64,000 nt of DNA from Streptomyces sp. NBC_01451 (GTDB taxonomy: Bacteria; Actinomycetota; Actinomycetes; Streptomycetales; Streptomycetaceae). The number at the start of each line of letters is the position of its first letter. Position 1 is the first letter of the stretch. The translations under genes and the position numbers were made by a program. Shown in pieces: positions 32,246 to 45,181 of the stretch. The notes under the pieces were generated by a model that saw only the letters and a program-made list of their open reading frames with translations, ran no database searches and was not told where the DNA came from. The stretch is taken from NCBI RefSeq assembly GCF_036227485.1, contig NZ_CP109479.1, forward strand, positions 6,014,001-6,078,000, written 5' to 3'.

Positions 32246-32285
32246 GGCCGTGGCGGGAATCGAACCCACGTAACTCGCTTTGCAG
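32246..32285 (-). other. displaced 3' half of tRNA-Cys (attL side)
   Basis: Reading leftward, this gives the anticodon loop, 3' anticodon stem, a T-arm GTGGG-TTCGATT-CCCGC and acceptor strand CACGGCC with discriminator T. It lacks a matching 5' half next to it. Its acceptor pairs with the 5' half at 45175-45181, so it is the original chromosomal end displaced by the insertion. No CCA is encoded here. Confidence 0.85.
32269..32285. repeat. attachment core, left copy
   Basis: CGTAACTCGCTTTGCAG is identical to 45134-45150. It covers part of the anticodon stem-loop of tRNA-Cys. Sequence identity ends at 32286, marking the element boundary. Confidence 0.85.
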
Positions 32286-32566
32286 TCAGTGTGCTTGGCT
32301 CCGTGACTACACCTAGTCTGAGCTGGGGAAACGCGCAGGGTCAAGGCGATCATGGCTACACGATGACTTACCCAGCGGAGCGGCATGGATGGCACGGGTG
32401 CTCTGAACTGGCCAGCAGATCTGCACCCAGCATCGAGCGCTTTCCTGGTCCCGTGGCCGTCTGCTCAGCCTGTTCGGGGGGATCTGGCCTCACCCAGTCC
32501 CGCACACACGCGAGACGGCTAACCGGATCTATACCTGACCCCTGCACCACACCCAACCGAGCAGTG
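32286..32566. other. left-end element gap
   Basis: About 280 bases of attL arm sequence with no gene recognised. It contains the first GGGTGTGG-type octamer (CCACACCCAACC at 32547-32558). Confidence 0.4.
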
Positions 32567-33025
32567 CTACCGCGACAGCAGCCCCCGCTTGCCCATCTCC
32601 TCGCGGATGATTCGCGTCACTCGCGGAACCTCTTCCTCGGGAAACCCACTGGGGATCAACTCCCGATAGTTGCCCTCCGAGTCGATGAGCCAGCGGATCG
32701 TGCATCCCTCCCGCAGGCGGAGCACGTGAACCGACGCGATGACCTCACCTTCTCCCAGGCTTCCCCGCTTCTCACTCCAAGACGGCGAGCGGTGGAACTC
32801 CGCTATCTCCGAGTGGAGCGCGAGGTACGCCACGTCAGCCTCATGGGCCTGGTGCAGATCCTCGGCGAACGGACACCCGCTCTGGTGGCGCGAGGCTACC
32901 CCCGGTGTAATCGGTCCCGCGCAGTCCGGACAGACAACTACAGGCCCCAACGCCACCCCCTCATCGTTCGTTGCCTCGTTCGCCGTGCGCTGCCGCCTCT
33001 GCCTGTTCAGCTTCCTCCGGCCCAT
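32567..33025 (-). CDS. hypothetical zinc-ribbon protein of the element
   Basis: A 152-aa protein, unrecognised. It has a very basic start (MGRRKLNRQRRQRTANE), a zinc-ribbon-like cluster VCPDCAGPITPG...SGCPF (about 32-55), and a C-terminal alpha/beta half with IRWLIDSEGNYRELIPSGFP. The frame is open to a GTG at 33067, giving 166 aa, so the start is uncertain. It is the last gene before attL and lies next to the iteron cluster, so it could be an iteron-binding or partition protein; that is inference. Confidence 0.6.
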   Translation of the reverse strand: MGRRKLNRQRRQRTANEATNDEGVALGPVVVCPDCAGPITPGVASRHQSGCPFAEDLHQAHEADVAYLALHSEIAEFHRSPSWSEKRGSLGEGEVIASVHVLRLREGCTIRWLIDSEGNYRELIPSGFPEEEVPRVTRIIREEMGKRGLLSR

Positions 33026-33180
33026 GTTCCACACCAACCCTTCGTTCGTCGTGCTCTCTCCTCTCACTCTCTCGGCGAATCTGCGGCTTCCGACTCACTC
33101 AGCGCTCGGCCTTCCGCCTCAAGATCGGCACCACACCCACGCTCGCTCGCGTCGCTCTGCCCCGCCTCAAGATCACGAGA

Positions 33181-33353
33181 GCGTGAATCAGAGCGTGAAT
33201 CGCTCCCCAGGCTGGGAGCGTGAATCAGGTGTGAATTCACGTTCTGATTCACGCCCACGACCGTGAATTCACGGTGTGAACGTGAACGATTCACACTCAG
33301 CATTCACGGTCATTCCTGCACGTCAGAGGCGTGAATGCTGTGATTCACGCTCT
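33181..33353. repeat. iteron cluster, putative replication origin
   Basis: About ten copies of GCGTGAATCA(G) or GTGAATTCAC occur in both orientations: near 33181, 33193, 33218, 33231, 33244 (reverse), 33261 (perfect palindrome CCGTGAATTCACGG to 33274), 33279-33297, 33301 (reverse), 33330 and 33341 (reverse). Dense repeats of this kind near a replication ATPase gene are typical of iteron origins. A regulator-binding array is the alternative. Confidence 0.7.
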
Positions 33354-33745
33354 GTGCGAGCGCGTCTCTACAGAGACGCACGCTCAGGCGATCACGAGCG
33401 CTTGAAGATCAAGAGGAGTTCACGACGCGCACGCGCGTGCGGAATACGCGAGCACGCGCACGAGTAGGACAGCCGTCCCCTGTTGCGCGAGACGGAGCAC
33501 AACAGCCAGCGGCCAAGATCACCAAAAGCGCCGGCGAGCATCGAGAGCGCACGTCTCGTGTGTGAGCGCGTCTCTCACTCGCAGAGCACCGTTAGGAGCG
33601 TCTGAGCGCGTCTCAGGAGCGCCAGCACGTCTTGCCGACAGACACGCTCGCTCATCGCGTCACAGCGCCCGAGCGGAGCGCACAGAGCTTCAACCGCCAG
33701 AAAGCCCCGACCCTCAACGGATCGGAGCTCTCGACTCGTGGATGA
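33354..33745. repeat. GAGCGCGTCTC repeats in non-coding gap
   Basis: The interval between the iterons and the small gene at 33746 has no supported gene. It carries GAGCGCGTCTC at 33358-33368, 33564-33574 and 33604-33614, the first within an inverted repeat with GAGACGCACGCTC. It may be part of the origin. Confidence 0.5.
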
Positions 33746-33922
33746 TCAGGCGGCGCGTCGGCTGTAAGTCTGGAACTCCGGGACACGGAGACCCTTCGCC
33801 CTCAGCTTCGCCACGATGGGTGCCAGCGGGACCCCGAACTCCGCCAACTCGTCGTACAGCGGGTCCGGTCGAGGGCCGGAAAGAAGCCTCTGCCGCGCCG
33901 CCTGAATCTCTGCCATTGTCAT
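33746..33922 (-). CDS. small element protein, 58 aa
   Basis: ATG 33922 follows AAGGAG with a 5-base spacing. The product begins MTMAEIQAARQRLLSG and ends RVPEFQTYSRRAA. It is compact and charged, with no cysteines or TM; no family is recognised. It is the distal gene after the RepA-like ATPase and may be in the same transcript. Confidence 0.6.
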   Translation of the reverse strand: MTMAEIQAARQRLLSGPRPDPLYDELAEFGVPLAPIVAKLRAKGLRVPEFQTYSRRAA

Positions 33923-34000
33923 TGCCGCTCCTTGCTCCTCACTAGCCTTTACGACTGTGCGAGCACAGTAATTGCCTTTCTGCGGCTGCGCGCCATGTGG

Positions 34001-35410
34001 CTAATCCAGAGGCTTCACGGTCGGCACGTGCACCCAATCGTCGCCGTCCTGTTCGGCTACGCCCGCCCCATTGAGCTGTGAGATGGCCTTGCGCATCCGA
34101 CCGCCGAGAGTGGCTTTCTCAACCTTCGGGTGTGCGGCGGTCAGAGCCTCCATGATCTGCTCTCGCCAGTCCTTGTCAGAGACGCGGCTCTGTTCGCGAA
34201 GGATGCGCTCCGCGATGGCCTTGGCGCCGTTGGTCGTCTTGTTCTGCGCCACTTCGCCAGCAGGGGTGTGGGACGTTCCCGTTGGCTCGTCGGCGACGAC
34301 GCGGACGTCTAGCGTGCCGCTCTGACCCGAGCTGTCCATGAGGACGTATCCGGCGACGTTGCCCGTCCTGAGACCCGTCTTCCGCTTGTTGTCCTTGGCC
34401 AGGTACAGCGCGGAGTAACCCCAGTCGCCGTCCACACCCTCCCGCATCGCTGCGAGTCGGTACACCGCGCCCTGGAACTTGTCCATCTTGCTGTGGTGTC
34501 CACTGGCGCGGTGCTGCGCGTCCTTGCTCAGGCCGACGTGGTCAATGACGATCCCCGTCATGTCCGGGTTCTGAGAGCGGTACGGGTCGAAGTACGTGGT
34601 AACCAGCTTGGTAATGGCTCCCGGGTCGGTCATGGGATTGACGTCCAGGAACTCCATGCACGGGTTAGCCGAGTCAATGACCACGAGAGAGGCAACGCCT
34701 CGGATCTCGGGAGCCCGCTTCTCTGTCACGTGGAACGGCAGGAAGTAGCGGTACGCCAGACCCTCCGGCACGCCCTGGTGAACCATCATCTCCTGGAGCT
34801 CGGTCGGAGTGATCTCCTCGAAGATGAGCCACACCACAAACTGACGCCGCCTGACGAACTCGGCGGCCACGTGAAGGAGAAGGTTCGTCTTACCCGAGCC
34901 GCCCTTGCCGAACAGGTAGTTCAACTTGGACCGGTAGAAGAGGTGACGAGCGGAGTCCTCGACCCGTCCGACGTCCAGCCAGACGCCTGTCGACGTATCC
35001 CGCTTCTGCCCGTTGTAGACCTCGTTATAGCGGGAAAGGGCCTCCATGACCTCGGAGTGAGTAATGCCACCGCCGACCGGCGACACGTCGTATGTGCCGA
35101 GCTTCACCGGCCGTTCGTACTGAGGCACCTTGAGGAACTGCTTATCCATGAGTTCCGGCGTCGCCTCCTTGTCGAATTCGTCGCGCGGGTCGTTCTTCAC
35201 CTCCTCCACCCGAGCGGCCATGTCGTAGTGGTACTCCTCATCGGTTTCCCAGTACCACTCTTCCAGTTCCAGGGCCTCAGCGTGAGCGGCCTCGATGTCC
35301 TGGACCAAGTCAGCCTCAGAGCGGAAGTCAACAACGACCCCGTCTGGGCCGTCGAATTCGCCGTTTTCCGTGCCGTCATCGCGTGCGCTACGCTCGTCAT
35401 GCGTGTTCAT
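34001..35410 (-). CDS. RepA/KaiC-like AAA (AAA_25) ATPase, probable replicative helicase
   Basis: A 469-aa RecA-fold ATPase. An acidic N-terminal 100 residues is followed by the ATPase core. Walker A is GKGGSGKT (168-175) and a Walker B-like strand is SLVVIDSANP; a third strand GIVIDHVGLSKD matches the family's sensor region. This is the pattern of plasmid RepA hexameric helicases and phage AAA_25 proteins. The C-terminal 70 residues resemble a winged helix (VEKATLGGRMRKAISQLNGAGV). ATG 35410 has AAGGAAGG upstream. It probably opens or unwinds the nearby iteron origin. Confidence 0.75.
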   Translation of the reverse strand: MNTHDERSARDDGTENGEFDGPDGVVVDFRSEADLVQDIEAAHAEALELEEWYWETDEEYHYDMAARVEEVKNDPRDEFDKEATPELMDKQFLKVPQYERPVKLGTYDVSPVGGGITHSEVMEALSRYNEVYNGQKRDTSTGVWLDVGRVEDSARHLFYRSKLNYLFGKGGSGKTNLLLHVAAEFVRRRQFVVWLIFEEITPTELQEMMVHQGVPEGLAYRYFLPFHVTEKRAPEIRGVASLVVIDSANPCMEFLDVNPMTDPGAITKLVTTYFDPYRSQNPDMTGIVIDHVGLSKDAQHRASGHHSKMDKFQGAVYRLAAMREGVDGDWGYSALYLAKDNKRKTGLRTGNVAGYVLMDSSGQSGTLDVRVVADEPTGTSHTPAGEVAQNKTTNGAKAIAERILREQSRVSDKDWREQIMEALTAAHPKVEKATLGGRMRKAISQLNGAGVAEQDGDDWVHVPTVKPLD

Positions 35411-35447
35411 GGTTAACCCTTCCTTCTGCTGTGTTGGGTGTGGTGAG

Positions 35448-35474
35448 TAGGGCGGAGTTCCTGGCTCCGCCCTA
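35448..35474 (-). terminator. hairpin between 75-aa gene and ATPase gene
   Basis: Perfect 10-bp arms TAGGGCGGAG and CTCCGCCCTA overlap the TAG stop of the upstream 75-aa gene. A GGGTGTGG octamer (35436-35443) lies between it and the ATPase Shine-Dalgarno. Confidence 0.65.
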
Positions 35475-35699
35475 TCCCTTTTCCTGCGCACGCTTGCACT
35501 CTCGGATCTCACCGGGGGTCATGCCGTGCTGGCACCGGACATGGTAGGCGCGGTACTCGTCGCAGAGCTGGCCCGCACGTGCGGTGATGGGGTGGTCACA
35601 CTCCGCGTGCCGATGGCTCAACCGGCACAGCAGGCGGGCGTAACTGTCGTTTGCATGGACGCAGTCGGCGTGATTGAGGGTCTGCTTAATGACGGCCAT
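35472..35699 (-). CDS. small Cys/His-rich element protein
   Basis: A 75-aa protein with a strong Shine-Dalgarno (GGAGGAA, 7 bases before ATG 35699). It contains four Cys and many His (HADCVHAN, LLCRLSHRHAECDH, VRCQHGMTPGEIRECK), suggesting zinc binding. The ending GMTPGEIRECKRAQEKG is reminiscent of small phage/plasmid proteins. Function unknown. It is upstream of the replication ATPase on the same strand. Confidence 0.65.
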   Translation of the reverse strand: MAVIKQTLNHADCVHANDSYARLLCRLSHRHAECDHPITARAGQLCDEYRAYHVRCQHGMTPGEIRECKRAQEKG

Positions 35700-36112
35700 C
35701 TCTATTCCTCCCAGTGCTATTCAGCGGTTACCGAACAATTTACGCGTTCGGTTTCCGACGACCCGAAATGCGCATGGGTTCCACTGAATGTGATCTGCGA
35801 CACATTAAGTTACCGGCCGGAAGATTAAAGCCGAGAGAGGTATGGAATAGCTCAGCGCGATGCGCGAGACGTATGCAGTGCAGACACATGATTAGGACGC
35901 TCAGAAGCGCCTGTACGGCGCTGAGCAGTGTGCACCGACACAGAGAGATGCGCGAGACGTGAAAGCGCCCGAGAAGCGCACAGAGCGATTCCACCAGAGA
36001 GCCCCGAGACCAGTGGTCGTCATGGTCTTGGGGCTCCGTGGTATCGGCAGTGCGGCCAACAGAGAGATTGTCTCAGACGGCAAAGCCGCGCTCCAAAGGA
36101 ATCAGGCGTGGT
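35700..36112. promoter_or_regulatory. 413-bp gene-free gap in the element
   Basis: The left part (35700-35830) is AT-rich for this genome and probably holds the promoter of the leftward 75-aa/ATPase genes. GATGCGCGAGACGT occurs twice, at 35859-35872 and 35947-35960. A long hairpin lies at 35999-36036. No gene was recognised; a rightward 100-codon frame overlapping 35526-35828 was rejected. Confidence 0.5.
35999..36036 (-). terminator. hairpin downstream of 246-aa gene
   Basis: Arms GAGCCCCGAGACCA and TGGTCTTGGGGCTC (one mismatch) with a 10-base loop, about 77 bases beyond the stop at 36113. Confidence 0.65.
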
Positions 36113-36853
36113 CTACCAACAGGATGGCGCCGTCTCTGCCATCTCGATCATCCGGATGGCGTTCCGCTGCCATGCCTTCATGCTGTTCCACTCCGCGTCA
36201 GTGAAGCCGAACCTATTGAGCGGGCCAGTCGGCGTCTGGGGCACGTCGTTGTCTTCTGCTCTCCGCCCCGAGTTGGGCAGGGCCCAGTAGGCGTGATGCC
36301 ACGACCAGACGCTGACATCCTCGTCTTTCACCTGGATGATCTCGCCCACCTTCATCAGTCGGTGAAGGTGCTTCAAGGCACGACGGCATGAGTCGGCATT
36401 GCCGCCGCCCTGTACGCACGCCTTGGCCACGTCGTGAGTGCTGGGCAGGCGGTCGCGGTTACCGGCCGCGCCTTCGTTGAACTCAGCCGTGACGTAGTCA
36501 AGGATGCGCCGCGTTAGCTCGGTGTGGGCCTTGGCCTTCCTGGTCCGAGTCGATGACTTGACTGGCTTCGGGACCTCGGCGGGAATCCAGCGATATTGGC
36601 CGTAGCTCAGAACACGTCGCGCCTGCCCGAGCCACTCCAGATCACACAGGAAGCGCAGGGCCTGGCGGTTGTCCCCGTCGAGGAACTCGGTTGCCACCTG
36701 ATCCTGGGTCGGACCCAGGTTAATCCCGTATTCCTCCGTGTCCTCGAACGTCTCGCGGATGAACCGGCGAACCTTGGGGAGCACGTACCGGGATTCGAAG
36801 TCGCCTTTGGACCCCGCGCCTTGGGCCCTGGGCTTAATGTCAACGTCGGCCAT
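36113..36853 (-). CDS. element protein with winged-helix-like domains, 246 aa
   Basis: Unrecognised protein with two helix-rich halves that look like winged helices: residues about 15-80 (RRFIRETFEDTEEYGINLGPTQDQVATEFL... RRVLSYGQYRWIPAE) and 105-190 (ELTRRILDYVTAEF... LPSTHDVAKACVQGGGNADSCRRALKHLHRLMKVGEIIQV). This suggests DNA binding, perhaps in replication initiation with the downstream ATPase. ATG 36853 and ATG 36868 are both possible starts. It overlaps the 49-aa gene. Confidence 0.6.
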   Translation of the reverse strand: MADVDIKPRAQGAGSKGDFESRYVLPKVRRFIRETFEDTEEYGINLGPTQDQVATEFLDGDNRQALRFLCDLEWLGQARRVLSYGQYRWIPAEVPKPVKSSTRTRKAKAHTELTRRILDYVTAEFNEGAAGNRDRLPSTHDVAKACVQGGGNADSCRRALKHLHRLMKVGEIIQVKDEDVSVWSWHHAYWALPNSGRRAEDNDVPQTPTGPLNRFGFTDAEWNSMKAWQRNAIRMIEMAETAPSCW

Positions 36854-36989
36854 CTCGTACCAGCGCATTCATCAGGGCGTGCCACATCGCGTCAGCGGCG
36901 GCGTACGGCTGCTGTTCTCCAGTCCACTTCTCGGTGGGCTTCCTCGTGGCCTTGAGCCGCTTGAATGCCTTGTTTTTCTTCCTGACCAT
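36840..36989 (-). CDS. 49-aa basic element peptide
   Basis: ATG 36989 comes three bases after the stop of the 141-aa gene, and the frame ends inside the start of the 246-aa gene. The product begins MVRKKNKAFKRLKATRKPTE and ends ALMNALVRDGRR; it is strongly basic at the N-terminus. The tight stop-start packing in one leftward operon is the main support. No family is known. Confidence 0.5.
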   Translation of the reverse strand: MVRKKNKAFKRLKATRKPTEKWTGEQQPYAAADAMWHALMNALVRDGRR

Positions 36990-36992
36990 GGC

Positions 36993-37418
36993 TCACCGCC
37001 GCTTCTCGCAGGCAAGCCGATCTGTACGAGTGATCAGGTGATCGCACTGGGCATGAGAGATGCGGCTCTTGGGCTTACGGGTCCGTTCCCGCTTCTCCCG
37101 AATCCGTGCCCATCTCTCTTGCATCCTTACCCTGGCTGCGTCGCTCAATGCCGCTTGACGTTCGGCTACTTCCTCTGGGGTAATCGCGGGAATCCAAGAC
37201 ATCGGGTAGTCGTTACCGATGACTGGGAGCAGTAGCCGCTCCGCCGTGAGTCGGTCCAGGTAGAGATACGGGGTGCCCATCTCGCCCGGAAAGAACTCCT
37301 GCCGTACATCCTCAGCAGTGACCCGCTCACGCTCGCTCACGAACTCCAGTACCCGGCAACTGAGTTCGTAGTTCAGCCTCAACGCTGCACGGTTGTCGAT
37401 GAGGTCAACGGTGGCCAT
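36993..37418 (-). CDS. 141-aa element protein, winged-helix-like
   Basis: ATG 37418 has GGGAGG eight bases upstream. The N-terminal 80 residues (LNYELSCRVLEFVSERERVTAEDVRQEFF... YLYLDRLTAERLLLPV) read like a winged helix. The C-terminal half is basic, with HAQCDHLITRTDRLACEKRR resembling the Cys/His tail of the 75-aa protein. It is the first gene of the three-gene set 37418-36113. Function unknown; DNA binding is likely. Confidence 0.6.
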   Translation of the reverse strand: MATVDLIDNRAALRLNYELSCRVLEFVSERERVTAEDVRQEFFPGEMGTPYLYLDRLTAERLLLPVIGNDYPMSWIPAITPEEVAERQAALSDAARVRMQERWARIREKRERTRKPKSRISHAQCDHLITRTDRLACEKRR

Positions 37419-37462
37419 TGGTCAACACCTCCCGCGGATTACCGTTCGGATCGGATACGTGG

Positions 37463-37509
37463 AGAGGCTGGGCATGGCAGCCATCCAGGGAACTGCCACA
37501 CCCAGCCTC
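37463..37509. terminator. hairpin with GAGGCTGGG arms
   Basis: GAGGCTGGG (near 37464) and CCCAGCCTC (37501-37509) are complementary, with about 28 bases between. The right arm abuts a CCACACCC octamer at 37496-37503. Confidence 0.45.
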
Positions 37510-37582
37510 GTGACTCGGACACCCTTACGAACCGAGTCGTCTCCCGGCTGGCCGACGACAATCAGGGACCGGGAGTTGAGAG

Positions 37583-37654
37583 GGTTGGGTGTGGGACACC
37601 ACTAGCGGGCACCATAAGAGCCCTGGCCTTACGGCCGACGTCCCACACCCAACC
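37583..37654. terminator. inverted repeat carrying the GGGTGTGG octamer
   Basis: Perfect 15-bp arms GGTTGGGTGTGGGAC (37583-37597) and GTCCCACACCCAACC (37640-37654), 42 bases apart, lie ten bases after the stop of the leftward 78-aa gene. Probably a terminator, possibly also a protein-binding site. Confidence 0.65.
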
Positions 37655-37663
37655 GGTCTTGTG

Positions 37664-37900
37664 TCAGGCCCGCGCTCGGTACAGACGGTGAGAATCCACG
37701 GGCTGACCCGGGAGGATCAGGCAGCCGTACACCCTGTCCACCCCGATCTCGCCACGGTCGAGCATCCGGCCCAGAAGGCGAGGCACGGCGGTGAGAGAGA
37801 GGCCGGGAAGCACCTCGAAGAAGCTCCCGTATTCCATCCCGTACGGGCTCCGCTCACGGAGTGCGCTGAGCACCCGCTCACGAGCCTCGCGGACCTTCAC
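37664..37900 (-). CDS. 78-aa element protein, winged-helix-like
   Basis: GTG 37900 overlaps the stop of the 76-aa gene (GTGA). The product (VKVREARERVLSALRERSPY..., LTAVPRLLGRMLDRGEIGV, YGCLILPG) reads like a small winged helix. The longer 165-codon frame from 38161 includes out-of-frame sequence of the neighbour and is not the gene. Last gene of the 39788-37664 operon. Confidence 0.6.
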   Translation of the reverse strand: MKVREARERVLSALRERSPYGMEYGSFFEVLPGLSLTAVPRLLGRMLDRGEIGVDRVYGCLILPGQPVDSHRLYRARA

Positions 37901-38127
37901 GACGCCGCCGCAATCGCGGACTTGACGCGGGTCACGACGGTGGGCTCCAGTGCGGTCGTGCCGGGCGTGGTCGGAGCGATGACGACGCTGTCCGGGCCGG
38001 ACGCGGTGGACGCTCCCGCCTTCGTGCGGCCGGTGTTGTAGAGGTCCAGGAACAGGGCGCCACGGCTGGAAGTGCCCAGCGCCATGAGCGCGTTGAAGTC
38101 CTGGAGATCCATCGTGATGTTGGCCAT
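37897..38127 (-). CDS. 76-aa element protein
   Basis: Starts MANITMDLQDFNALMALG and contains a Thr/Ser/Pro-rich second half. ATG 38127 follows AGGTAGG. No Cys, no TM, no recognised family. It is the fourth gene of a leftward operon that begins with the terminase-small-like gene, and is coupled to the next gene by GTGA. Confidence 0.6.
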   Translation of the reverse strand: MANITMDLQDFNALMALGTSSRGALFLDLYNTGRTKAGASTASGPDSVVIAPTTPGTTALEPTVVTRVKSAIAAAS

Positions 38128-38209
38128 TGCTGGGCCTACCTTTCGTTACGCGGTTGGACATCCACTCGGGAGAGCGGGATAGGTGTGTGGTGCAAACGGC
38201 CGGCTGCGG

Positions 38210-38611
38210 TCAGGCGGCCGAGCCCTTGATGCGCTGGCGGAGGGCGGTCGTGGAGTTGGCCTCCATCTCCGCCCGGTTGCTCTTGACCATCTGGTCGTAC
38301 GAGGCGCGGCGGCGGTCCCGCTCGTTGGTGACCCGCTGTTCCTCGCGGAGTTCCTTGAGAGCGCGGGCCTCGGCGAACGCGTAGGACAGGCCGTGCTGTC
38401 CCTGGAGCTCCCGAGCGCGCTTCTGGACGGCGGCTCGGAACTCGGCCTGCCCCTTGGAGTTGGCCTCGTGCACGTAGCTGTAGTCCGTCTCGCCGCGAGC
38501 CTGGCGCAGCAGTGCGAGCGTGGTCGGGTCGGTGGTGACCGGCTCGGGCTCCTCACGCTGGGCGGAGCCCCGCATCTTGGCCATGAGTCGCGTTGCCATG
38601 TCGTCGGCCAT
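38210..38611 (-). CDS. 133-aa charged helical element protein
   Basis: ATG 38611 follows GAGGAGTAACCACG, which overlaps the stop of the 235-aa gene. The product is highly charged and predicted mostly helical (RARELQGQHGLSYAFAEARALKEL, then REEQRVTNERDRRRASYDQMVKSN), coiled-coil in style, ending in RQRIKGSAA. No family is recognised. A scaffold or DNA-binding role is possible. Confidence 0.6.
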   Translation of the reverse strand: MADDMATRLMAKMRGSAQREEPEPVTTDPTTLALLRQARGETDYSYVHEANSKGQAEFRAAVQKRARELQGQHGLSYAFAEARALKELREEQRVTNERDRRRASYDQMVKSNRAEMEANSTTALRQRIKGSAA

Positions 38612-38616: not shown

Positions 38617-39324
38617 TTACTCCTCTTCTTCGAAAGCGGGTGGTGTGGTGTATGCGTTCCGATGCGTCCGGTTCTCCCACGTGGCCAGGGCTTCACGCAT
38701 CTTGCACCCCAACTCCTCGTCAGCCTTGAGGCGAGCGACCCGGGCGGCGCGCTCTGCCTCACGCTCACGCCGAACCCGCTCCCGCAATTCCCAATACGTG
38801 AGCCCGTCTTGGCCATCGACTCCCTGACTGAGAGCCTTCCTCAGCTCCGCCAATTTCTCCGGGGTGAATTCCTCCCACGGGGGAGTGGGGTCGACATGAC
38901 CCTTTTTTAGGCGGGCCTCAAGAACCGCTTTCGCCCATTCCGAGCGCTGGCGGATCTCCTCATCTGAGAGCTTCCGCGTCTTGCACGATGGCTCTACATG
39001 CGGCTCATCCGAACGGAAGTGCTTGCCCAGGTTGTACCGCTCAAAGAACAGGCGGATCCGATCACTTCTGGGTGGGTCTTCTGCTCCCCGATTGAACTCC
39101 TCGGGTACCGCGTAACCGGCCTCCGCCAGTTCCTTCAACCGGATCAGCAGGTGGCCTGTCCAGGCCATCTCTGCAAAACCCTTACTCAACTCGCGGTCCC
39201 GCCTCTGCCTCTCCTGCACGGCAGGGTGGTCCGGGTACTTCTTGCAGCACGCGCCGTGGGTGAGGCAGATCTCCACACCCGCCGCTGCACGCTCGCGGAG
39301 AAGCCGCGATGAACGGAGAGGCAT
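38617..39324 (-). CDS. 235-aa element protein, unknown
   Basis: A charged, helical protein with a short Cys/His patch near the start (CLTHGACCKKYPDHP) and long Arg/Glu-rich helices in the second half (LRERVRREREAERAARVARLKADEEL). It starts three bases after the stop of the 153-aa gene's frame region and ends at the next Shine-Dalgarno, so operon membership is clear. Family unknown. Confidence 0.6.
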   Translation of the reverse strand: MPLRSSRLLRERAAAGVEICLTHGACCKKYPDHPAVQERQRRDRELSKGFAEMAWTGHLLIRLKELAEAGYAVPEEFNRGAEDPPRSDRIRLFFERYNLGKHFRSDEPHVEPSCKTRKLSDEEIRQRSEWAKAVLEARLKKGHVDPTPPWEEFTPEKLAELRKALSQGVDGQDGLTYWELRERVRREREAERAARVARLKADEELGCKMREALATWENRTHRNAYTTPPAFEEEE

Positions 39325-39326
39325 GG

Positions 39327-39788
39327 TCAGTCACCCCATACCGGATCGGGCTGGAGCTGGAGGAATTCGAGAGCCTTCTCCATTTCCAGCGTGACCTTGG
39401 CGGGCATCTCCAGACCGAGGAGCTTGGCCACCTTCATGTTGAGATCCGCGATGGTGCGGACACATGCGTTCCGCTCTGCCACGGTCTCAGCGGCAGCCAG
39501 GTTCTTGTGAGCCTCGCGGATCATGTCAGTGAGCGAGGACTCACGGTCGGCGCGCAGGTCATCCGCCGAGGCTGTACTCAGGTTCTTCCGAGCCCGAGCG
39601 ATGCGGCGTTCCACCACATCTTTGGACAGCCCCAGTGCACGACCGATGGCGATAGCGGAATTGCCACGCTTGTGGAGGGCGTAGACCTTCTCCGCCTGCG
39701 CGTCCAGCTCGGCCGGGTTCAGAGTGCCAGCACCCAAGGGAGCGTCCGGCTTGCGAGGCTTCGGCCTGCTCGGCTTTCTCTCGGTCAC
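39327..39788 (-). CDS. terminase-small-subunit-like HTH protein
   Basis: A 153-aa protein. The N-terminal half carries a helix-turn-helix (YALHKRGNSAIAIGRALGLS, then KDVVERRIARARKNL). The C-terminal half has a helical region ending NMKVAKLLGLEMPAKVTLEM. The ending resembles the AKLLGLDAP(T)K motif common in small terminase subunits and related phage HTH proteins. First gene of the operon, divergent from the HNH gene; HNH genes often adjoin terminase genes in phages. The assignment is by pattern only. Confidence 0.5.
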   Translation of the reverse strand: MTERKPSRPKPRKPDAPLGAGTLNPAELDAQAEKVYALHKRGNSAIAIGRALGLSKDVVERRIARARKNLSTASADDLRADRESSLTDMIREAHKNLAAAETVAERNACVRTIADLNMKVAKLLGLEMPAKVTLEMEKALEFLQLQPDPVWGD

Positions 39789-39860
39789 GTCTCACCCTCC
39801 CTTTAGCCAGGCGAATTCCTTACCAATTCCATCGATTGGCAATATCAGAATGACAGACGC

Positions 39861-39888
39861 TTGACAGAACGGCAAGGTGTTGTATATG
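39861..39888 (+). promoter_or_regulatory. promoter of HNH gene
   Basis: TTGACA at 39861-39866 and TATATG at 39883-39888 with a 16-base spacer form a good -35/-10 pair. The gene thus has its own promoter inside a region otherwise transcribed leftward. Confidence 0.55.
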
Positions 39889-39933
39889 GCGCGCGACATG
39901 GGGAAACCGCAATATCGCGGATATCGTGGATTC

Positions 39934-40290
39934 ATGAGCAATCGATACGTGAATGCCTATACCCGCTTCGTGGATAACGTCGATATCTCCCGTGGTCCTA
40001 ATGCGTGCTGGCCGTGGAAAGGTCACCGCACGGAGAAGGGTTACGGCGTCTTCCAGGTGGGCGGAAAGAAAGTCCGCTCTCATCGGTGGTTCGCGGAACG
40101 GATCATCGGCGAGGAGCTAGAGCCGGACCTCTTCGTGTGCCACACCTGCGACAACCCGCCGTGCCAGAACCCACGGCACTGGTTCATCGGTGACGCCCTC
40201 GACAACAACCGCGACAAGACAGCGAAGGGCAGACATCCGGGCGGCTGGCACGGCAACCAATACACGGGAAGTCTCGTGCGCGCTGCGTGA
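39934..40290 (+). CDS. HNH endonuclease
   Basis: A 118-aa HNH_3-type nuclease. The core has NACWPWKGHRTEKGYGVFQV, then VRSHRWFAERIIG, CHTCDNPPCQNPRHWFIGD and ALDNNRDKTAKGR: the HH..N..H pattern with two CxxC-like zinc pairs. ATG 39934 gives the usual family start just before the WPW motif; ATG 39898 or 39886 are possible. It lies opposite to its neighbours with its own promoter, as mobile homing-type HNH genes often do. It could also assist DNA packaging with a terminase. Confidence 0.8.
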   Translation: MSNRYVNAYTRFVDNVDISRGPNACWPWKGHRTEKGYGVFQVGGKKVRSHRWFAERIIGEELEPDLFVCHTCDNPPCQNPRHWFIGDALDNNRDKTAKGRHPGGWHGNQYTGSLVRAA

Positions 40291-40464
40291 GTTGCGAGCG
40301 AGCGTCACGCGCTCTCTTGCGCGTTAGGGCGACAGAATCGCGTCTCTCGGCTCCCAGCAGTGCGAGCGCGACAGAAGACACGCGCTCAGCAACCGATCTC
40401 GCCAGACGCGCGCACAGAGCTTTCCGCGCATTCTGGCTGGTCAGCGTATGCCGGCGTGCACGCC

Positions 40465-40502
40465 GAGAAGCCCCCGACTCGTGGGTGAGTCAGGGGCTTC
40501 TC
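40465..40502 (-). terminator. hairpin after 92-aa gene
   Basis: GAGAAGCCCC...GACTC pairs with GAGTC...GGGGCTTCTC (one bulge), 14 bases after the stop at 40516. The gap 40291-40515 otherwise contains only GCGC-rich repeats. Confidence 0.7.
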
Positions 40503-40515
40503 TGCTGGGGCTGGG

Positions 40516-40794
40516 TTACTTCGCGGCGTCGTCGGCCTTCGGCTCGACAGCCTTCGCGGGAGCGGGCGCCGTCTTCTTCGCGGGGGTCGCTCGCGTCGGC
40601 GACTTCTTCGCAGCCGGAGCGGCAGCGGGCTTGGCGGGCGCCTTCTTCGCGGGAGCCTTCGCGGTCCCTGCGGTCGGTGCCTTCGCTGCGCTCTCGCCCA
40701 GTGCATCGGCTCGCATCTGCTTACGGCAGGCAGCGCGCCCGGCCTTCGTGCTGGCGTGCTCGCAGTTGCTGTGGTCGAAGTGCTGGCGGGTCAT
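40516..40794 (-). CDS. small protein with histone H1-like tail
   Basis: ATG 40794 has GGGAGA upstream. The 92-aa product starts MTRQHFDHSNCEHASTKAGR with a small Cys/His region, followed by an Ala/Lys/Pro-rich tail with repeated AKAPAKKAPAK-like units, like histone H1 or the HupS tail. It probably binds DNA non-specifically. The upstream frame extension (to 40905) lacks a ribosome site. Confidence 0.65.
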   Translation of the reverse strand: MTRQHFDHSNCEHASTKAGRAACRKQMRADALGESAAKAPTAGTAKAPAKKAPAKPAAAPAAKKSPTRATPAKKTAPAPAKAVEPKADDAAK

Positions 40795-40930
40795 CTCGTC
40801 TCCCTGGTTCGTCGTGTCTTGCTGACACGGCGAAGCTAGGAAACTGACGAGTGCCGTCCGTAGGGTCTCGGACGGATTCCGTGGAGAACTGTGATCCGGG
40901 CTCATGGCTCCTCGCCTTGTCGATGACCCA

Positions 40931-40965
40931 GGCGGGTGTGGAACAGGAGACGTCCCACACCCGCC
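40931..40965. terminator. inverted repeat with GGGTGTGG octamer
   Basis: GGCGGGTGTGG (40931-40941) and CCCACACCCGCC (40954-40965) flank a 12-base loop, 17 bases after the stop of the DUF7848 gene. Confidence 0.65.
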
Positions 40966-40981
40966 CTGTCGTGCGGTGTTG

Positions 40982-41254
40982 CTAGGCCGTGCCGTCTGTC
41001 GTGGCGGCCGGGCGTTCGTGCTCTTCCTGGTCCGCTCGCGTCACCCTCGCGTGATCCGTGACGACGCGGCGGAAGAGGTTGTGGCCCGTCCGGCCCGTGT
41101 GCCGGAGCGCCCAGTCCTGGGCGTCGTTCTGCTCACCCTGCGGACCGGACTCCTCGCCGCACTCGTGGGTGACACAGAAGATCTCGAACGTGTACCCGCC
41201 CTCGGGTGCGTGGTTGATCGTGTGATCTACGAAGCGGTAGACGGCTCGGGTCAC
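40982..41254 (-). CDS. DUF7848-like protein
   Basis: A 90-aa protein starting with GTG 41254, which overlaps the previous stop (GTGA). It reads VTRAVYRFVDHTINHAPEGG..., FEIFCVTHECGEESGPQ, DWALRHTGRTGHNLFRR, a pattern I know from Streptomyces proteins now grouped as DUF7848. Conserved Cys and His suggest metal binding. Genes of this kind commonly accompany GntR/XRE regulators in Streptomyces; function unknown. Confidence 0.7.
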   Translation of the reverse strand: MTRAVYRFVDHTINHAPEGGYTFEIFCVTHECGEESGPQGEQNDAQDWALRHTGRTGHNLFRRVVTDHARVTRADQEEHERPAATTDGTA

Positions 41255-41478
41255 AGGACGGCTCCAGTGCTCTGTGCGTTGGCTCGCTTGACCTTGAGGG
41301 ACAGGACTTCTTCCGGGCTCAGTGGCTCCACGTAATCCGGAGACACCTCCCACTCACGGCCACCGCCGAGCGGGCGCAGCATCGCGTACGGGCCCGCCTT
41401 ACCCATGAACTCGCCGACGCGGTTCCTGGCTGTGTCTCGCACCAGAGCGCCCGCCTGAAGTAGTCCGACGTCGGTCAT
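41251..41478 (-). CDS. small conserved Streptomyces protein
   Basis: A 75-aa protein (MTDVGLLQAGALVRDTARN, VGEFMGKAGPYAMLRPLGGG, REWEVSPDYVEPL). The small beta-rich pattern is familiar from many Streptomyces genomes beside DUF7848 genes. ATGA and GTGA overlaps bind it to both neighbours in one operon. Function unknown. Confidence 0.7.
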   Translation of the reverse strand: MTDVGLLQAGALVRDTARNRVGEFMGKAGPYAMLRPLGGGREWEVSPDYVEPLSPEEVLSLKVKRANAQSTGAVL

Positions 41479-41816
41479 GCCGTCGCTCCGTGGAAGTCGA
41501 TGCCGAGGGTTGCGAGGGTGGCGGCGGTTCGCCGGTCACGCTGTCGTCGCCGTTCCTGCTCCCGCTCGTAAGCGAGGAGGTACGGCCGGATGAGTGGGGT
41601 GTCCTCGCCTCGCAGATACGCGGGCGGACGAGGGGAGCGCGGAGTCGAGACGGCGGGATGCGCCACACCCACCAAGCTCCGTGAGCTGGTGACCGTGCGG
41701 AGAGCGATGGTCGGAGAATCCGCGGGAGTGTGCGGTGTCGGCTCGGGTGAGGTAGCGCGGCGCTTGCCGGTCGATGGCATGAGCCACGAGAGAAGTACTG
41801 CCAGTAGGCTTCGCAC
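41475..41816 (-). CDS. 113-aa protein divergent from GntR
   Basis: GTG 41816 has AAGGAG eight bases upstream. A hydrophobic N-terminus (VRSLLAVLLSWLMPSTGKRR) is followed by a Pro/Thr-rich linker, then a basic helix LLAYEREQERRRQRDRRTAA and a short end FHGATA. The last part is typical of a widespread Streptomyces small protein found in this operon type. It is the first gene of a three-gene operon likely controlled by the divergent GntR. Confidence 0.65.
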   Translation of the reverse strand: MRSLLAVLLSWLMPSTGKRRATSPEPTPHTPADSPTIALRTVTSSRSLVGVAHPAVSTPRSPRPPAYLRGEDTPLIRPYLLAYEREQERRRQRDRRTAATLATLGIDFHGATA

Positions 41817-41937
41817 GTCGGTCACTCCTTGGGTGATCGGCCACGCCCCCGGACTGTTCGCGCAGTCGCGGGGGTCTTCCGTTGGGGCGGTGCTGGTCGT
41901 GCTGTCAAGCTCCTGCGCTTTCGAGCATACGCGCATT

Positions 41938-41964
41938 CGCGTATACGCGGTCGCGTGATCACGC
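41938..41964. promoter_or_regulatory. GntR-type operator palindromes
   Basis: CGCGTATACGCG (41938-41949) and GCGTGATCACGC (41953-41964) are perfect 12-bp palindromes between the divergent operon and the GntR gene, with related half-sites CATACGCGC and GATACGCGG either side. They are likely operators of the adjacent GntR. Confidence 0.6.
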
Positions 41965-41986
41965 AGATACGCGGACGCTTGAAGGT

Positions 41987-42214
41987 ATGGATCTTGACCG
42001 CAGCAAGCCCGTATGGCCCCAGGTCGCGGCGGAACTGCGCCGCCGTCTCGACGCTGGCCAGTACGAGAAAGGCTCTCGTTTCCCCGCCGTGAATGACCTG
42101 GCTGCCGAGATGGAGGTAGCGCCGTCCACGGTGCAGAAGGCCGTGGCCGCCCTCCGCGAGGAAGGACGGCTTTACACCGTGCTCGGGCAAGGCTCGTTCG
42201 TCTCGAAGGACTGA
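41987..42214 (+). CDS. GntR-family winged-helix regulator (DNA-binding domain only)
   Basis: A 75-aa protein made only of the GntR winged helix: PVWPQVAAELRRRLDAGQYE, FPAVNDLAAEMEVAPSTVQK, AVAALREEGRLYTVLGQGSF. There is no ligand domain, as in KorSA-like plasmid regulators. GAAGG lies just before ATG 41987. It probably represses its own promoter and the divergent operon. Confidence 0.85.
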   Translation: MDLDRSKPVWPQVAAELRRRLDAGQYEKGSRFPAVNDLAAEMEVAPSTVQKAVAALREEGRLYTVLGQGSFVSKD

Positions 42215-42236
42215 GGGCCTGCGCGGTCATCGTCAC

Positions 42237-42434
42237 TCAGTGCCCGTCCAGGTGCCTGGCCATGAGGACGTTGCAGTCGGACACCGTGGTGTAGTCGCCA
42301 CCCGCTCGTGCGCGGTCTCGCGTGCTGGCCAACTCGGCACAACCCGCGCACCCTTCAACCGGCGTGGGCTCCAGTTGCTCGCTACGGTCCGGCAGATCCA
42401 GCGGCGCACTGTGTGATCGCTTCGGCTCGCTCAT
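42237..42434 (-). CDS. 65-aa Cys-rich protein divergent from XRE regulator
   Basis: ATG 42434 begins MSEPKRSHSAPLDLPDRSEQ. The second half has EGCAGCAEL...SDCNVLMARHLDGH, with three Cys and a C-terminal His that could bind zinc. Small proteins of this type commonly stand opposite XRE-TPR regulators in Streptomyces. Function unknown. Confidence 0.6.
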   Translation of the reverse strand: MSEPKRSHSAPLDLPDRSEQLEPTPVEGCAGCAELASTRDRARAGGDYTTVSDCNVLMARHLDGH

Positions 42435-42512
42435 GGTCCGAGTCTGAAAGCTCGGAGCCTTCACTTCCGGTGACTGGGTGTTGACTGAGTGGTGACTGTC
42501 TACGCTGGCACC

Positions 42513-43733
42513 ATGAACGGGGAGTTCGGCCAGCGCGTGAGAGCCGCGCTACAGGCACGGCGGATGTCGATCCGCGCTGCGTCGCGGGCGATGAACTACG
42601 ACCACGCGTTCCTGTCGCGGGTCCTGGCGGGCAAGCAACTGCCGTCCATAGAACTGGCCGAGAGCCTGGACCGCTTACTCGATGCGGGCGGCGAAGTGGT
42701 GGCGCTGGCGGCTCGTCTGCTGGACGGAGAGACCCACACCCAACCGTCGGTGTCTGTGCCGACGCTGGACGACTTCCTGCCCGAGGGTGACCCGCTCAGT
42801 CTGCTCACGGTGCGCTCGCCTCGTCGGGTGGGTGTGGGAGAAGTGCTCGACCTACAGAAGCGCGTCCACGGGCTACGCCTTGCCGACGACGTTCTAGCGG
42901 GCGGCGACCTCATCGGGCCCGCGCTGCGAGAGCTGAGGAAGACCGTCCGTCTGTACCGCGAGAACACGCACACGGAAGAGGTCGGCCGCGCGCTCCTAGT
43001 TCAGATCGGAGAGCTGGCACAGATCGCCGGATGGATCGCGTCCGACGCCGGACGGCACGAGGAAGCCGAGCGGATCTACCGTCTCGGTCTGAGCGCGGCC
43101 AAGCAGGCTGAGGATCACACGCTGGCGGGCAACCTGGCTGGCTCGCTCGCCTACCAGATGAGCAACACGGGCCGGACAGACGAGGGTCTGACGCTCGCTC
43201 AGGCTGCGCTCCACGACGCGGGAGAAGACGCGCCGGGCAAGGCTCGCGCTCTCTACTGGGACCGCGTCGCGTGGGCACACACGCAAGCGGGCGGGACGGA
43301 GAACGCACGTGCCGCCATGCGCGCGCTCGGTGAGGCGGGCGAGGCGCTGGCCGACGGCAACGAGACGAGTGCCGACGAGCCGCCCGCGTATCTGTACTGG
43401 GTGGACGCGGGCGAACTACAGGTCATGGAGTCGCGGGTCTATACGGAGCTGCGTAGGCCCCTGCGAGCGGTGCCGCTGCTCCGTGACGTGCTCGGCAAGT
43501 ACGACGCCACGCACACGCGAGAGATGGCGCTGTACCTGTCCTGGCTCGCCATAGCGCTGGCTGACGCGAACGAGCCGGAGGAAGCCGCGGGAGTGGCTGA
43601 GCGCGTGATCCGCATAGCGGCAGACGTGGCCTCGGAGCGCACAGCCGAACGGGTCCGCGTCGTGCTCGCTCGGCTCCAGGAGTACGCCGACGTGCCAGAG
43701 GTCGCGGCACTGCTGGCCGACCACGCGGCTTGA
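42513..43733 (+). CDS. XRE-family regulator with TPR domain
   Basis: A 406-aa regulator. The N-terminal HTH (about 5-60: FGQRVRAALQARRMSIRAAS, MNYDHAFLSRVLAGKQLPS) is followed by TPR-type helices through the C-terminus (EEAERIYRLGLSAAKQAEDH, DEGLTLAQAALHDAGEDAPG). The layout is that of quorum/peptide-sensing-like or BldD-neighbour regulators common in Streptomyces. ATG 42513 is preferred over the upstream GTG. It probably sets the state of the element (maintenance or excision). Confidence 0.8.
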   Translation: MNGEFGQRVRAALQARRMSIRAASRAMNYDHAFLSRVLAGKQLPSIELAESLDRLLDAGGEVVALAARLLDGETHTQPSVSVPTLDDFLPEGDPLSLLTVRSPRRVGVGEVLDLQKRVHGLRLADDVLAGGDLIGPALRELRKTVRLYRENTHTEEVGRALLVQIGELAQIAGWIASDAGRHEEAERIYRLGLSAAKQAEDHTLAGNLAGSLAYQMSNTGRTDEGLTLAQAALHDAGEDAPGKARALYWDRVAWAHTQAGGTENARAAMRALGEAGEALADGNETSADEPPAYLYWVDAGELQVMESRVYTELRRPLRAVPLLRDVLGKYDATHTREMALYLSWLAIALADANEPEEAAGVAERVIRIAADVASERTAERVRVVLARLQEYADVPEVAALLADHAA

Positions 43734-43746
43734 GTCGGAGAGCTGC

Positions 43747-43787
43747 GGTGGGTGTGGTGCGTAGGTGATGGATGCACCACACCCACC
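43747..43787. terminator. bidirectional terminator, XRE gene and integrase
   Basis: Perfect 14-bp arms GGTGGGTGTGGTGC and GCACCACACCCACC with a 13-base loop lie between the convergent stops at 43733 and 43851. Both arms contain the element-wide octamer. Confidence 0.8.
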
Positions 43788-43850
43788 GTGTCGTCACTCA
43801 GCGCTCAGCCGGCCGTCTACCGTGCGTGACGGTTGGGCGGCGAGCGACGG

Positions 43851-44981
43851 TCAGGAGTAGCGGTCGCCCAGGTTGTGCATGGTGTTGACCGCCCGCTGAC
43901 TGGCCATGTCCGCGCCGTACCGCCTGAGCATCGCGGGTGACTTCCATCCCCGGATGGCCATGATGTGCTCGCCGGATACGCCCCTGGCTTTCAGGTCATC
44001 CGCCCACGAGTGGCACCAGCAGTGCGGCGACACCTCGGCCGAGTCGTATCCGGCTCGTTCTGCCACCCGCTTGGTCATGTTCCACAGACCCGAGTAACCG
44101 AGCCGTGGACGGTTGTTGAGGCCGAGCCAGAGCCACGGCTCAGTGTGCCGCTTGTGTGTGGTGCGGAGACGTAGGTACCGCTGGAGCGCCTTGACCGTGG
44201 ACGGCTGTAGCGGGATGACCCGCCCGTCCACAGAGTTGCGGTCCATCTTGAGCGGGACGACCACGAGAACCGCTCCTTGGAGATCCAGGTCTTGGACCCG
44301 GATGTTCAGGATCTCCTCTGCGCGCAAGCCCTCGGTCAGCACACGGAGAAGCGCGTGGTCTCGCGTGGTCTCGAAGTCCTTTCGCCCTGGTCCCCACGCG
44401 GTGATGTCCAGCGTGTCCTGGATGAACTCCTCGGACAGCGTCCGTGGCTTGCCGAGCTGCGGAGCCGCGTACTTGTGGAACTTCGGGTCGTCGTACGGGT
44501 TCGGGTGGTCGTACTCCTCGGAGAGGTAGACGAACAGCGCACGTAGGTTCCGCTGCGTGGTGTTGACCCCGCCCGTGTACCCGCCTTTCCCGTCCTGGCT
44601 TTTGGGTACGTCCTTGGTCTGGTACCACCATCGGAAGAACGCGTTGGCTGTCGAGACATCCACGTCGGTGAACGAGGTGACTTCCACACCCACCGCGTTG
44701 ACGTGCTGCGATGCGCCGATCCAGGCTGAGAGTGCCTTGCCCGCGTTGACGTAGGCATTGATCGTCTTCCGCTGGAACGGGCGACCGTGCTTGTTCGTCG
44801 TGGTCGACAGGTGCAAGTCAAGCTCAGCGATGAGCGCTGCCCTGACGTCCTCGGGCGACGTGAGCGCACGTACGGCGCTCTGTGTGTGCGCACGAGTGTC
44901 TGTGTCTGTCGCGCTCTCGGCGACTCGCCTAGGAGCGCGTAGCGCGCTCTTGCGCGCGCCCCTCTGTACTGCCTCAGCCAT
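43851..44981 (-). CDS. int: tyrosine integrase with HxxR Arg replaced by Cys
   Basis: A 376-aa phage-type integrase. The SAM-like core-binding domain is about 40-165 and the catalytic domain about 180-370. Catalytic residues: R220 (EGLRAEE), K245 (VPLKMD), H320 in SPHCWCHSWADDL, W346 (RGWKSP) and Y355 (LRRYGA). The Arg of the HxxR box would be residue 323, but the codon is TGC (44013-44015), Cys; one transition from CGC. This should impair recombination. It lies beside the rebuilt tRNA-Cys as expected. No excisionase gene is obvious. Confidence 0.9.
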   Translation of the reverse strand: MAEAVQRGARKSALRAPRRVAESATDTDTRAHTQSAVRALTSPEDVRAALIAELDLHLSTTTNKHGRPFQRKTINAYVNAGKALSAWIGASQHVNAVGVEVTSFTDVDVSTANAFFRWWYQTKDVPKSQDGKGGYTGGVNTTQRNLRALFVYLSEEYDHPNPYDDPKFHKYAAPQLGKPRTLSEEFIQDTLDITAWGPGRKDFETTRDHALLRVLTEGLRAEEILNIRVQDLDLQGAVLVVVPLKMDRNSVDGRVIPLQPSTVKALQRYLRLRTTHKRHTEPWLWLGLNNRPRLGYSGLWNMTKRVAERAGYDSAEVSPHCWCHSWADDLKARGVSGEHIMAIRGWKSPAMLRRYGADMASQRAVNTMHNLGDRYS

Positions 44982-44987
44982 GGTCTA

Positions 44988-45106
44988 TGGCTCCCTCGGT
45001 TCGAGGAGCCAGAGCGTCAAGCGACTTACCCGGCTCCATGACGACTAGGAGTCACAGAGCCGGGCGGCGCTGACTGTTCCGCGTTTGTGCAGATCAGACC
45101 TACTAC
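44988..45106. promoter_or_regulatory. integrase promoter / attP arm region
   Basis: Inverted repeats TGGCTCC...GGAGCCA (44988-45011) and CCCGGCTC...GAGCCGGG (45029-45036, 45057-45064) lie between int and the tRNA. They may be integrase arm sites or int regulation. Confidence 0.45.
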
Positions 45107-45181
45107 TGGAGGCCGTGACCGGAATCGAACCGGCGTAACTCGCTTTGCAGGCGAGTCCCTGAACCACTCGGGCACACGGCC
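45107..45181 (-). tRNA. tRNA-Cys (GCA), hybrid of chromosome and element
   Basis: A complete cloverleaf on the minus strand: acceptor GGCCGTG/CACGGCC, anticodon stem CTCGC/GCGAG with loop CTGCAAA (anticodon GCA), T-arm GCCGG-TTCGATT-CCGGT, discriminator T and encoded CCA (45107-45109). The 5' half is chromosomal, and the 3' half from the core onward comes from the element. Nothing blocks function. Confidence 0.93.
45134..45150. repeat. attachment core, right copy
   Basis: CGTAACTCGCTTTGCAG is identical to 32269-32285 and lies within the tRNA-Cys gene. Confidence 0.85.

Follow-up and report, generated by a model that had tools for sequence, protein, structure and literature searches.

The 64,000-nucleotide stretch analysed here, referred to as the window, covers positions 6,014,001-6,078,000 of the one-contig 10.27-Mb genome of Streptomyces sp. 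NBC_01451 (labelled G000) and holds a 12.9-kb island at a tRNA-Cys gene. The island is probably an integrated satellite, similar to the phage-inducible chromosomal islands (PICIs), that parasitises the Zukovirus-like phages of Streptomyces (Zuko and KimJongPhill). It is one of seven islands that make up a real, conserved and apparently undescribed Streptomyces satellite family. In the literature searched, no paper describing this family was found, and none used the genus name Zukovirus. Excision, replication, packaging and a change of the helper capsid or tail are predicted from the sequence. A codon-usage gene finder written for this analysis called 21 genes in the island. Those that matter most to the argument, together with the borders and the presumed origin, are the following (HTH, helix-turn-helix; TPR, tetratricopeptide repeat; TerS, small terminase).

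32244..32285, no strand: distal copy of the attachment (att) repeat, presumably the displaced 3' half of the host tRNA-Cys
33176..33355, no strand: iteron cluster (GTGAAT / ATTCACG; repeat count), presumed origin
34001..35410, minus: RepA/RecA-like P-loop ATPase, 469 aa, presumed replication initiator or helicase (AAA_25, 0.006; 15 proteins in the family search)
35472..35699, minus: small protein with the HxxCxH motif, encoded upstream of the ATPase (blast against siblings, motif scan)
36993..37418, minus: o36993, protein with a C-terminal HxxCxH motif (blast against siblings, motif scan)
37897..38127, minus: o37897, 76-aa conserved protein (aligned across the seven islands; 74% identity in G135)
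38210..38611, minus: o38210, charged protein with an N-terminal motif like a scaffold tail (family search, 41 proteins; motif tests)
38617..39324, minus: o38617, CxxHGxxCxxYP protein (helper TerS C-terminal tail motif in siblings, degenerate here)
39327..39788, minus: TerS-like protein with an HTH and KLLGLExPxKV (phrog_645, 1.1e-9; family of 44 proteins)
39886..40290, plus: HNH endonuclease (phrog_1872, 1.7e-25, scanned from 39877)
40516..40794, minus: small protein with an HxxCxH...C motif (motif scan, blastp against Zuko)
41987..42214, plus: GntR-type HTH regulator, 75 aa (PF00392, 5e-13; homologues in four of six siblings)
42489..43733, plus: NsdA-family HTH/TPR regulator (NF053720, 3e-63; phrog_10886, 2e-47)
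43851..44981, minus: tyrosine integrase, 376 aa (PF00589, 7e-17; 98% identity with its counterpart in the G247 island, likewise in tRNA-Cys)
45107..45181, minus: tRNA-Cys(gca) with the second att copy at 45109-45150 (tRNA call, repeat match)

A conserved island family in Streptomyces

The island spans from the 42-nt repeat at 32244 to the tRNA-Cys gene. The two att copies are imperfect repeats with 90% identity. The 3' 30-mer of the tRNA-Cys matches the distal att at 24 of 30 positions, and the next best place in the 19 kb searched reaches 19 of 30. The distal copy is apparently nearer to the tRNA-Cys of G247, host of a sibling island, than the 3' half of the window tRNA is; from this resemblance, the island may have brought along a tRNA 3' end acquired in a previous host, which then replaced the local end. 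An empty site is found in three relatives (G005, G010 and G014), where the MoCoBD and MFS genes that flank the site enclose a tRNA-Cys without insertion. The GC content per kb is 0.60-0.69 within 33-45 kb and 0.66-0.80 outside, so that the island is the part of lower GC.

The initial annotation of this DNA had described an island in tRNA-Cys with core repeats, an integrase, two regulators, an iteron cluster, a terminase-small-like HTH protein and an HNH protein, all of which were recovered by the repeat matches and profile scans listed above. It had also named a RepA-like ATPase; the P-loop ATPase is indeed present, and its Pfam match is weak. The genes that it had reported missing were likewise missing from Pfam and PHROGs scans of the window open reading frames (ORFs), which gave no TraB/FtsK, Spd, capsid, portal, tail or large terminase (TerL), some ORFs having been scanned in one library alone and the 49-aa ORF 36840-36989 in neither. 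Relaxase, TraB/FtsK and Spd were also absent from Pfam scans of the window ORFs and the scanned sibling proteins. A transfer or structural module, which the annotation had said would count against its proposal, was not found among the window island genes; the sibling island in G261 has tail genes without detected capsid, portal or TerL. The window thus holds an integrase island between att repeats in which no capsid, portal or TerL of its own was detected, as in a satellite.

Family searches with the ATPase and the TerS-like protein collected 15 and 44 proteins, respectively, and all those with an organism name are from Streptomyces. Among the genomes of the genus, given G numbers here, ATPase matches occur in 4 of 392 (G000 itself, G135, G261 and G030) and TerS-like matches in 4 of 391 (G135, G226, G247 and G300). 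The seven islands are those of the window, G135, G247, G261, G300, G226 and MD2014, the last being the CCM_MD2014 locus from the species collection. Two further places from the ATPase search were rejected as members: the one in G030 is a Zuko-like prophage, and a second one in G000 is another element. G234 and G456, which match the TerS profile, were also excluded. In G234, the match is a 266-aa protein (30%) whose neighbour is 30% like the G226 Rep, and o38617 and o38210 are missing; G456 offers only a 54-residue HTH match.

The block formed by TerS-like, o38617, o38210 and o37897 has the same internal gene order in each of the seven islands, with caveats at three of them: the o38617 slot of G261 holds a 51-aa ORF without detected similarity, and o37897 in G247 and G226 was assigned by position and alignment. 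The orientation of the block relative to the integrase is inverted in G261 and G226; the other five islands show the same gene order counted from the integrase, with the replication module last. Genes for an integrase, a Rep and a small HxxCxH protein occur in 7/7 islands, a GntR gene in 5/7 and an HNH gene in 5/7. Six of the seven have a tRNA-Cys, -Arg or -Ser gene next to them or nearby. The targets are tRNA-Cys (two islands), tRNA-Ser (two) and tRNA-Arg (G135); a tRNA-Arg also lies within the MD2014 locus, and no tRNA was found at the G226 locus. The five islands with att repeats measure 12.6-15.2 kb; the integrase-side end of MD2014 is outside the DNA fetched. With our own Nei-Gojobori script and one pair per gene, the ratio of nonsynonymous to synonymous substitution (dN/dS) was 0.11-0.55 in 14 of 15 island genes (0.21 for the TerS-like gene and 0.28 for o38617). 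Low values in most genes argue that the island is not simply decayed.

The replication modules vary within this conserved frame. RepA-like ATPases are present in the window, G135, MD2014 and G261, the Rep proteins of G247 and G226 are AAA_25 proteins of 723 and 673 aa, and that of G300 is a 913-aa D5-type primase-helicase. In their N-terminal parts, the Rep proteins of G247, G226 and G300 resemble the Zuko primase (41%, 28% and 31%). The window and G247 islands are 98% identical in the integrase and 94% in the regulator, yet their Rep proteins differ and the TerS identity is 37%. Judged from these sequences, the replication module is swappable across the family. In the window, 12 of the 18 GTGAAT copies of the 64 kb, both strands counted, fall within 220 nt. 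Heptamer arrays of 8-10 copies within 300 nt lie near the Rep gene in six of the seven islands, and the top count in G300 is 5. The Rep-like ATPase and the iterons would allow the island to replicate itself.

Sequence links to the candidate helper phages

The direct link between the window and Zuko, a phage also named in PMC10690885, is the motif [HQ]xxCxH(4-9)RxxC. It has three matches in the 64 kb, all inside the island, and 11 matches each in Zuko and KimJongPhill, 10 of those in KimJongPhill being in the early region. One ORF shuffle gave none, and 2 of 11 control stretches, mostly partial genomes, gave single matches that look like chance. With E values of up to 1, tblastn of the small HxxCxH protein matched 17 of 50,697 records, including some Gordonia and Mycobacterium phages, which means that the motif is not exclusive. 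A separate observation concerns Zuko itself, in which eleven ORFs at 64.5-71.9 kb (L028:14499-21867) have in common a short zinc-like module, HxxCxHxxTKxARxxC. Among the profile searches in Zuko, o36993 found the HxxCxH ORFs and o38617 found the Zuko TerS at 0.026; the profiles of o37897, o36113, o38210 and the TerS-like protein found nothing below 0.2. A Zuko-like structural cassette was not seen in the window island, where blastp against Zuko aligned only HxxCxH stretches of the 40516-40794 protein.

Further links are found in the siblings. In the G261 island, one protein of 101 aa shares 82-84% identity with proteins from Zuko and KimJongPhill. The same island encodes a tape-measure-like protein (phrog_4197, 7e-85) that is 41% identical to that of Zuko and has 987 residues as against 1409, the largest gap lying opposite Zuko residues 181-421. 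Blast of the island proteins identified homologues of Zuko gp27, gp28, gp29 and gp32 in G261, of gp27 also in MD2014 and G226, and of gp32 also in G226. The sibling identities to Zuko are 56-82% for gp27, 57% for gp28, 65% for gp29 and 43-63% for gp32. The shortened tape measure and the gp27/28/29/32 matches are located at L011:6503-9466 and 2397-4567, with no capsid, portal or TerL found.

The TerS-like protein is linked to the small terminases of Zuko and KimJongPhill through phrog_645, which matches 43 of the 43 family proteins scanned out of 44. The alignment covered the same number, P0031 being left out, and the PHROGs scan omitted the TerS of G247, G226 and G261. In the six phage records scanned, phrog_645 matched Zuko gp6 (1.9e-17) and KimJongPhill gp7 (3e-14), with weak matches in large ORFs of two others. 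Both gp6 and gp7 directly precede TerL, and gp7 is annotated as small terminase. The label of phrog_645, RNase E, looks wrong for these members. Profile searches of the PDB gave a CAP REPEAT entry for the TerS-like protein (0.0007, over a short HTH-like stretch) and otherwise nothing below 0.3; for the ATPase, RecA at 0.055 was the sole match.

The C-terminal stretch of the helper TerS, DMELAEMIRRGRA, is missing from the island TerS. A similar stretch is present in the adjacent gene, o38617, of which the G247 version has one copy and those of G135, MD2014, G300 and G226 have two each. A matrix of six o38617 segments, one per island, ranked the TerS C-terminal tail first among 104,790 windows in Zuko and 104,505 in KimJongPhill, with scores of 33.4 and 30.7 bits, the next best being 15.4 and 14.9. 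On prophages, the TerS tail ranked first in G140, G206 and G335. In the reverse direction, a matrix of nine phage TerS tails placed o38617 first in five of the six islands that have it. In phage lambda, TerS contacts TerL through its C-terminal part (PMC6739421), which suggests a TerL-docking or competing role for o38617.

A second shared motif connects o38210 with the helper scaffold. Among the 41 o38210 family proteins, the majority start with a motif such as ADSTSELLMAKMRGE. The matrix was built from the proteins that passed the motif pattern (33 of 41, of which 24 distinct were used; eight were left out). With this matrix, the C-terminus of the KimJongPhill scaffold, STSELILARMRGDE, ranked first of 104,505 windows and the Zuko scaffold tail second of 104,790; among C-terminal tails only, the scaffold came first in both phages. 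In 2000 column-shuffled matrices, the Zuko value was reached in one and the KimJongPhill value in none. The SaPI1 protein CpmB has a C-terminal RIIK motif in common with the scaffold of its helper 80alpha and uses it to bind the capsid protein (PMC5644958). A CpmB-like action of o38210 is proposed at lower confidence. The major capsid proteins (MCPs) of three Zuko-like prophages (L058, L059 and L060) hold a segment, DDSVAxxIxAKMxG, that outscores their own scaffold tails with the o38210 N-terminal matrix.

The tail comparisons covered 10 phages or satellites and seven prophage loci, the former being those examined among 16 distinct phages or satellites (19 records) with a Zuko-like MCP. In this set, the strongest TerS-tail matches are Zuko and KimJongPhill and the strongest scaffold-tail match is KimJongPhill, with Wentworth close to Zuko. 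The tests are not blind: the o38617 segments were selected by eye while looking at the Zuko TerS tail, the reverse tests used phage tails (nine TerS, 12 scaffold) that had likewise been aligned by eye, and it was a weak profile comparison that first drew attention to the o38210 motif.

Exploitation of the helper and competing explanations

In the favoured scenario, helper infection would relieve the repression of the island, which would then excise and replicate from its iterons. The island TerS would steer the helper TerL onto island DNA, with o38617 supplying, or competing for, the TerL-docking tail of the helper TerS. o38210 might act as a rival scaffold that alters helper capsid assembly, as CpmB of SaPI1 does. 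Particles would be built with helper capsid and tail, and the island would re-integrate at the tRNA-Cys of a new host. On a more tentative level, the family may hijack its helper by detached docking tails: an o38617-type adaptor carrying one or two TerS C-terminal tails beside a tail-less TerS, and a charged protein bearing the scaffold C-terminal motif; at least one member, G261, may also rebuild the helper tail with its shortened tape measure and helper-like tail-fibre genes. If true, the docking tails would show the TerS-TerL and scaffold-capsid contact sites in Zuko-like phages and a route of capsid redirection parallel to that of CpmB, and a tape measure encoded by the satellite itself would amount to a tail-remodelling strategy. 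A defined family together with a named, isolated candidate helper group makes the satellite idea directly testable.

Several results weigh against a satellite of Zuko-like phages or against the proposed parts of its mechanism. No helper-like MCP is present in the window genome. The ATPase, TerS-like, o38617 and o38210 proteins match no phage record by tblastn, and a pattern-limited search of viral contigs turned up neither the ATPase nor the TerS family. phrog_645 also matches in 11 of 14 control genomes; it found nothing in Picard, and nothing in Kromp despite an annotated TerS. The profile comparison of island and Zuko TerS reached 12% probability. Both tail copies of the window o38617 are degenerate (rank 4 of 17,910), the TerS tail is not the top match of the o38617 matrix in four of the seven prophage loci, and it was not seen before TerL in Gibson, Yara, Dryad, Wentworth and phiRKBJ001. 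For o38210, the reverse scaffold test was moderate (ranks 4, 3, 1, 9, 2, 28 and 4), the matrix preferred an MCP segment over the scaffold in three related prophages, the window protein is short of ~23 C-terminal residues present in relatives, and its dN/dS against G300 is 0.84, at wide divergence.

Some of these points bear on the choice of helper. The island might be a satellite of a phage outside the Zuko group, its Zuko links having come through gene exchange or a common ancestor, and the degenerate TerS-tail motif of the window and the missing MCP fit such a helper, as do the scaffold tails, whose conservation seems, by eye, to extend through a wider capsid group with members such as Gibson, Dryad and OscarSo. 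We regard this as unlikely, given that the best TerS-tail matches are Zuko and KimJongPhill, that the best scaffold-tail match is KimJongPhill, and that the HxxCxH array is present in these phages.

It is similarly improbable that the island is a mobilisable integrated plasmid or a stripped actinomycete integrative and conjugative element (AICE), with Rep and iterons, that is moved by a co-resident conjugative element. AICEs of the pSAM2 type combine tRNA integration, a tyrosine integrase and a replication module, and the tRNA-site integrase, Rep-like ATPase and iterons of the island resemble such modules. Moreover, the satellites of G261 (L011:12975-18654) and G300 (L021:3500-6400) adjoin, by eye, a pSAM2-type int/xis/rep set, as tandem elements at tRNA-Ser. 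The initial annotation had offered a satellite or a mobilisable integrated plasmid; the satellite is clearly the better of the two, whereas the plasmid is opposed by the lack of a detected transfer gene, the conserved TerS-centred block and the links to Zukovirus genes. Classification as an AICE or mobilisable plasmid was rejected since no Tra, Spd or relaxase was found among the window ORFs and the sibling proteins scanned. The ATPase had no tblastn match among plasmids. A decayed Zuko-like prophage remnant is very unlikely and was also rejected: it would account for the HxxCxH motif and TerS-like protein in common with Zukovirus, and Zuko-like MCP genes do occur in 6 of 392 genus genomes, but the same block recurs in seven islands, five of them with matching att repeats, at several different tRNA genes, most genes are under purifying selection, and tblastn of the four core proteins tested matched no phage record, Zuko included.

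The satellite reading can be set beside known systems. SaPI-type PICIs (SaPI, Staphylococcus aureus pathogenicity island) are islands with an integrase and their own replication. The present family is likened to them by its way of working and set beside them by description, without being classed as a member. Some SaPIs encode their own TerS (PMC10690885), and the sharing of RIIK by CpmB and its scaffold (PMC5644958) parallels the o38210 motif in common with the Zuko and KimJongPhill scaffold, although this motif is N-terminal in o38210 and C-terminal in CpmB. The Streptomyces family differs from SaPIs in that its core proteins, wherever the organism is given, come from Streptomyces, its TerS tail is on a separate protein, and its regulators are of the NsdA and GntR types. 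In PICIs of Gram-negative bacteria, a small island protein, Rpp, binds the helper TerS and redirects packaging (PMC6739421); compared by description, the present family has instead a TerS-like protein and a carrier of the TerS C-terminal tail. MulchRoom and MiniFlayer are also Streptomyces satellites, with records of 14.8 and 17.4 kb that encode TerL, portal, scaffold and capsid. According to PMC10690885, the TerL, portal and MCP that they encode have relatives in Zuko and KimJongPhill, and they are without key replication genes. The present family is nearly their mirror image, with Rep and TerS and no TerL, portal or capsid found; these hallmarks (TerL, portal, MCP) were absent from the Pfam and PHROGs scans of the window. 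The difference from pSAM2-type AICEs is that no TraB/FtsK or Spd was found in the window island, the hallmark TraB/FtsK-type translocase having no Pfam match in the window. A survey of actinobacterial prophages (PMC10023795) raised the possibility that phage satellites or PICIs account for many of the smaller elements it covered (<15 kb).

Remaining genes and minor observations

The other genes called in the island are listed below.

32567..33034, minus: 155-aa CxxC protein near the distal att (gene model alone; family scans gave nothing significant)
33746..33922, minus: 58-aa ORF (gene model alone)
36113..36868, minus: o36113, conserved 251-aa protein (75% in G247; 54% over 134 aa in MD2014)
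36840..36989, minus: 49-aa basic ORF (88% in G135)
37664..37900, minus: 78-aa ORF (81% in G247)
40982..41254, minus: DUF7848 protein (PF25232, 1.5e-21)
41251..41478, minus: 75-aa ORF (phrog_15135, 1e-5; 83% in G247)
41475..41672, minus: short conserved ORF (blast matches to predicted ORFs of four siblings and a tblastn match in G261)

PADLOC gave nothing among the four window proteins tested. Weak LeoBC matches were obtained in two siblings (0.042 and 4e-4), the latter for an ORF of the G226 island (L025:14490-15143) that is possible defence cargo. A frameshifted copy of o38210, P0097, lies on a 17,659-bp contig of another assembly and is identical to that of the window up to about residue 80. 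A second element-like region of the window genome (L016:8100-10709, corresponding to G000:C1:6551100-6553709) encodes an 869-aa AAA_25-like protein, and at L016:15979-16206 this region also holds a 40% homologue of the window ORF 41251-41478.

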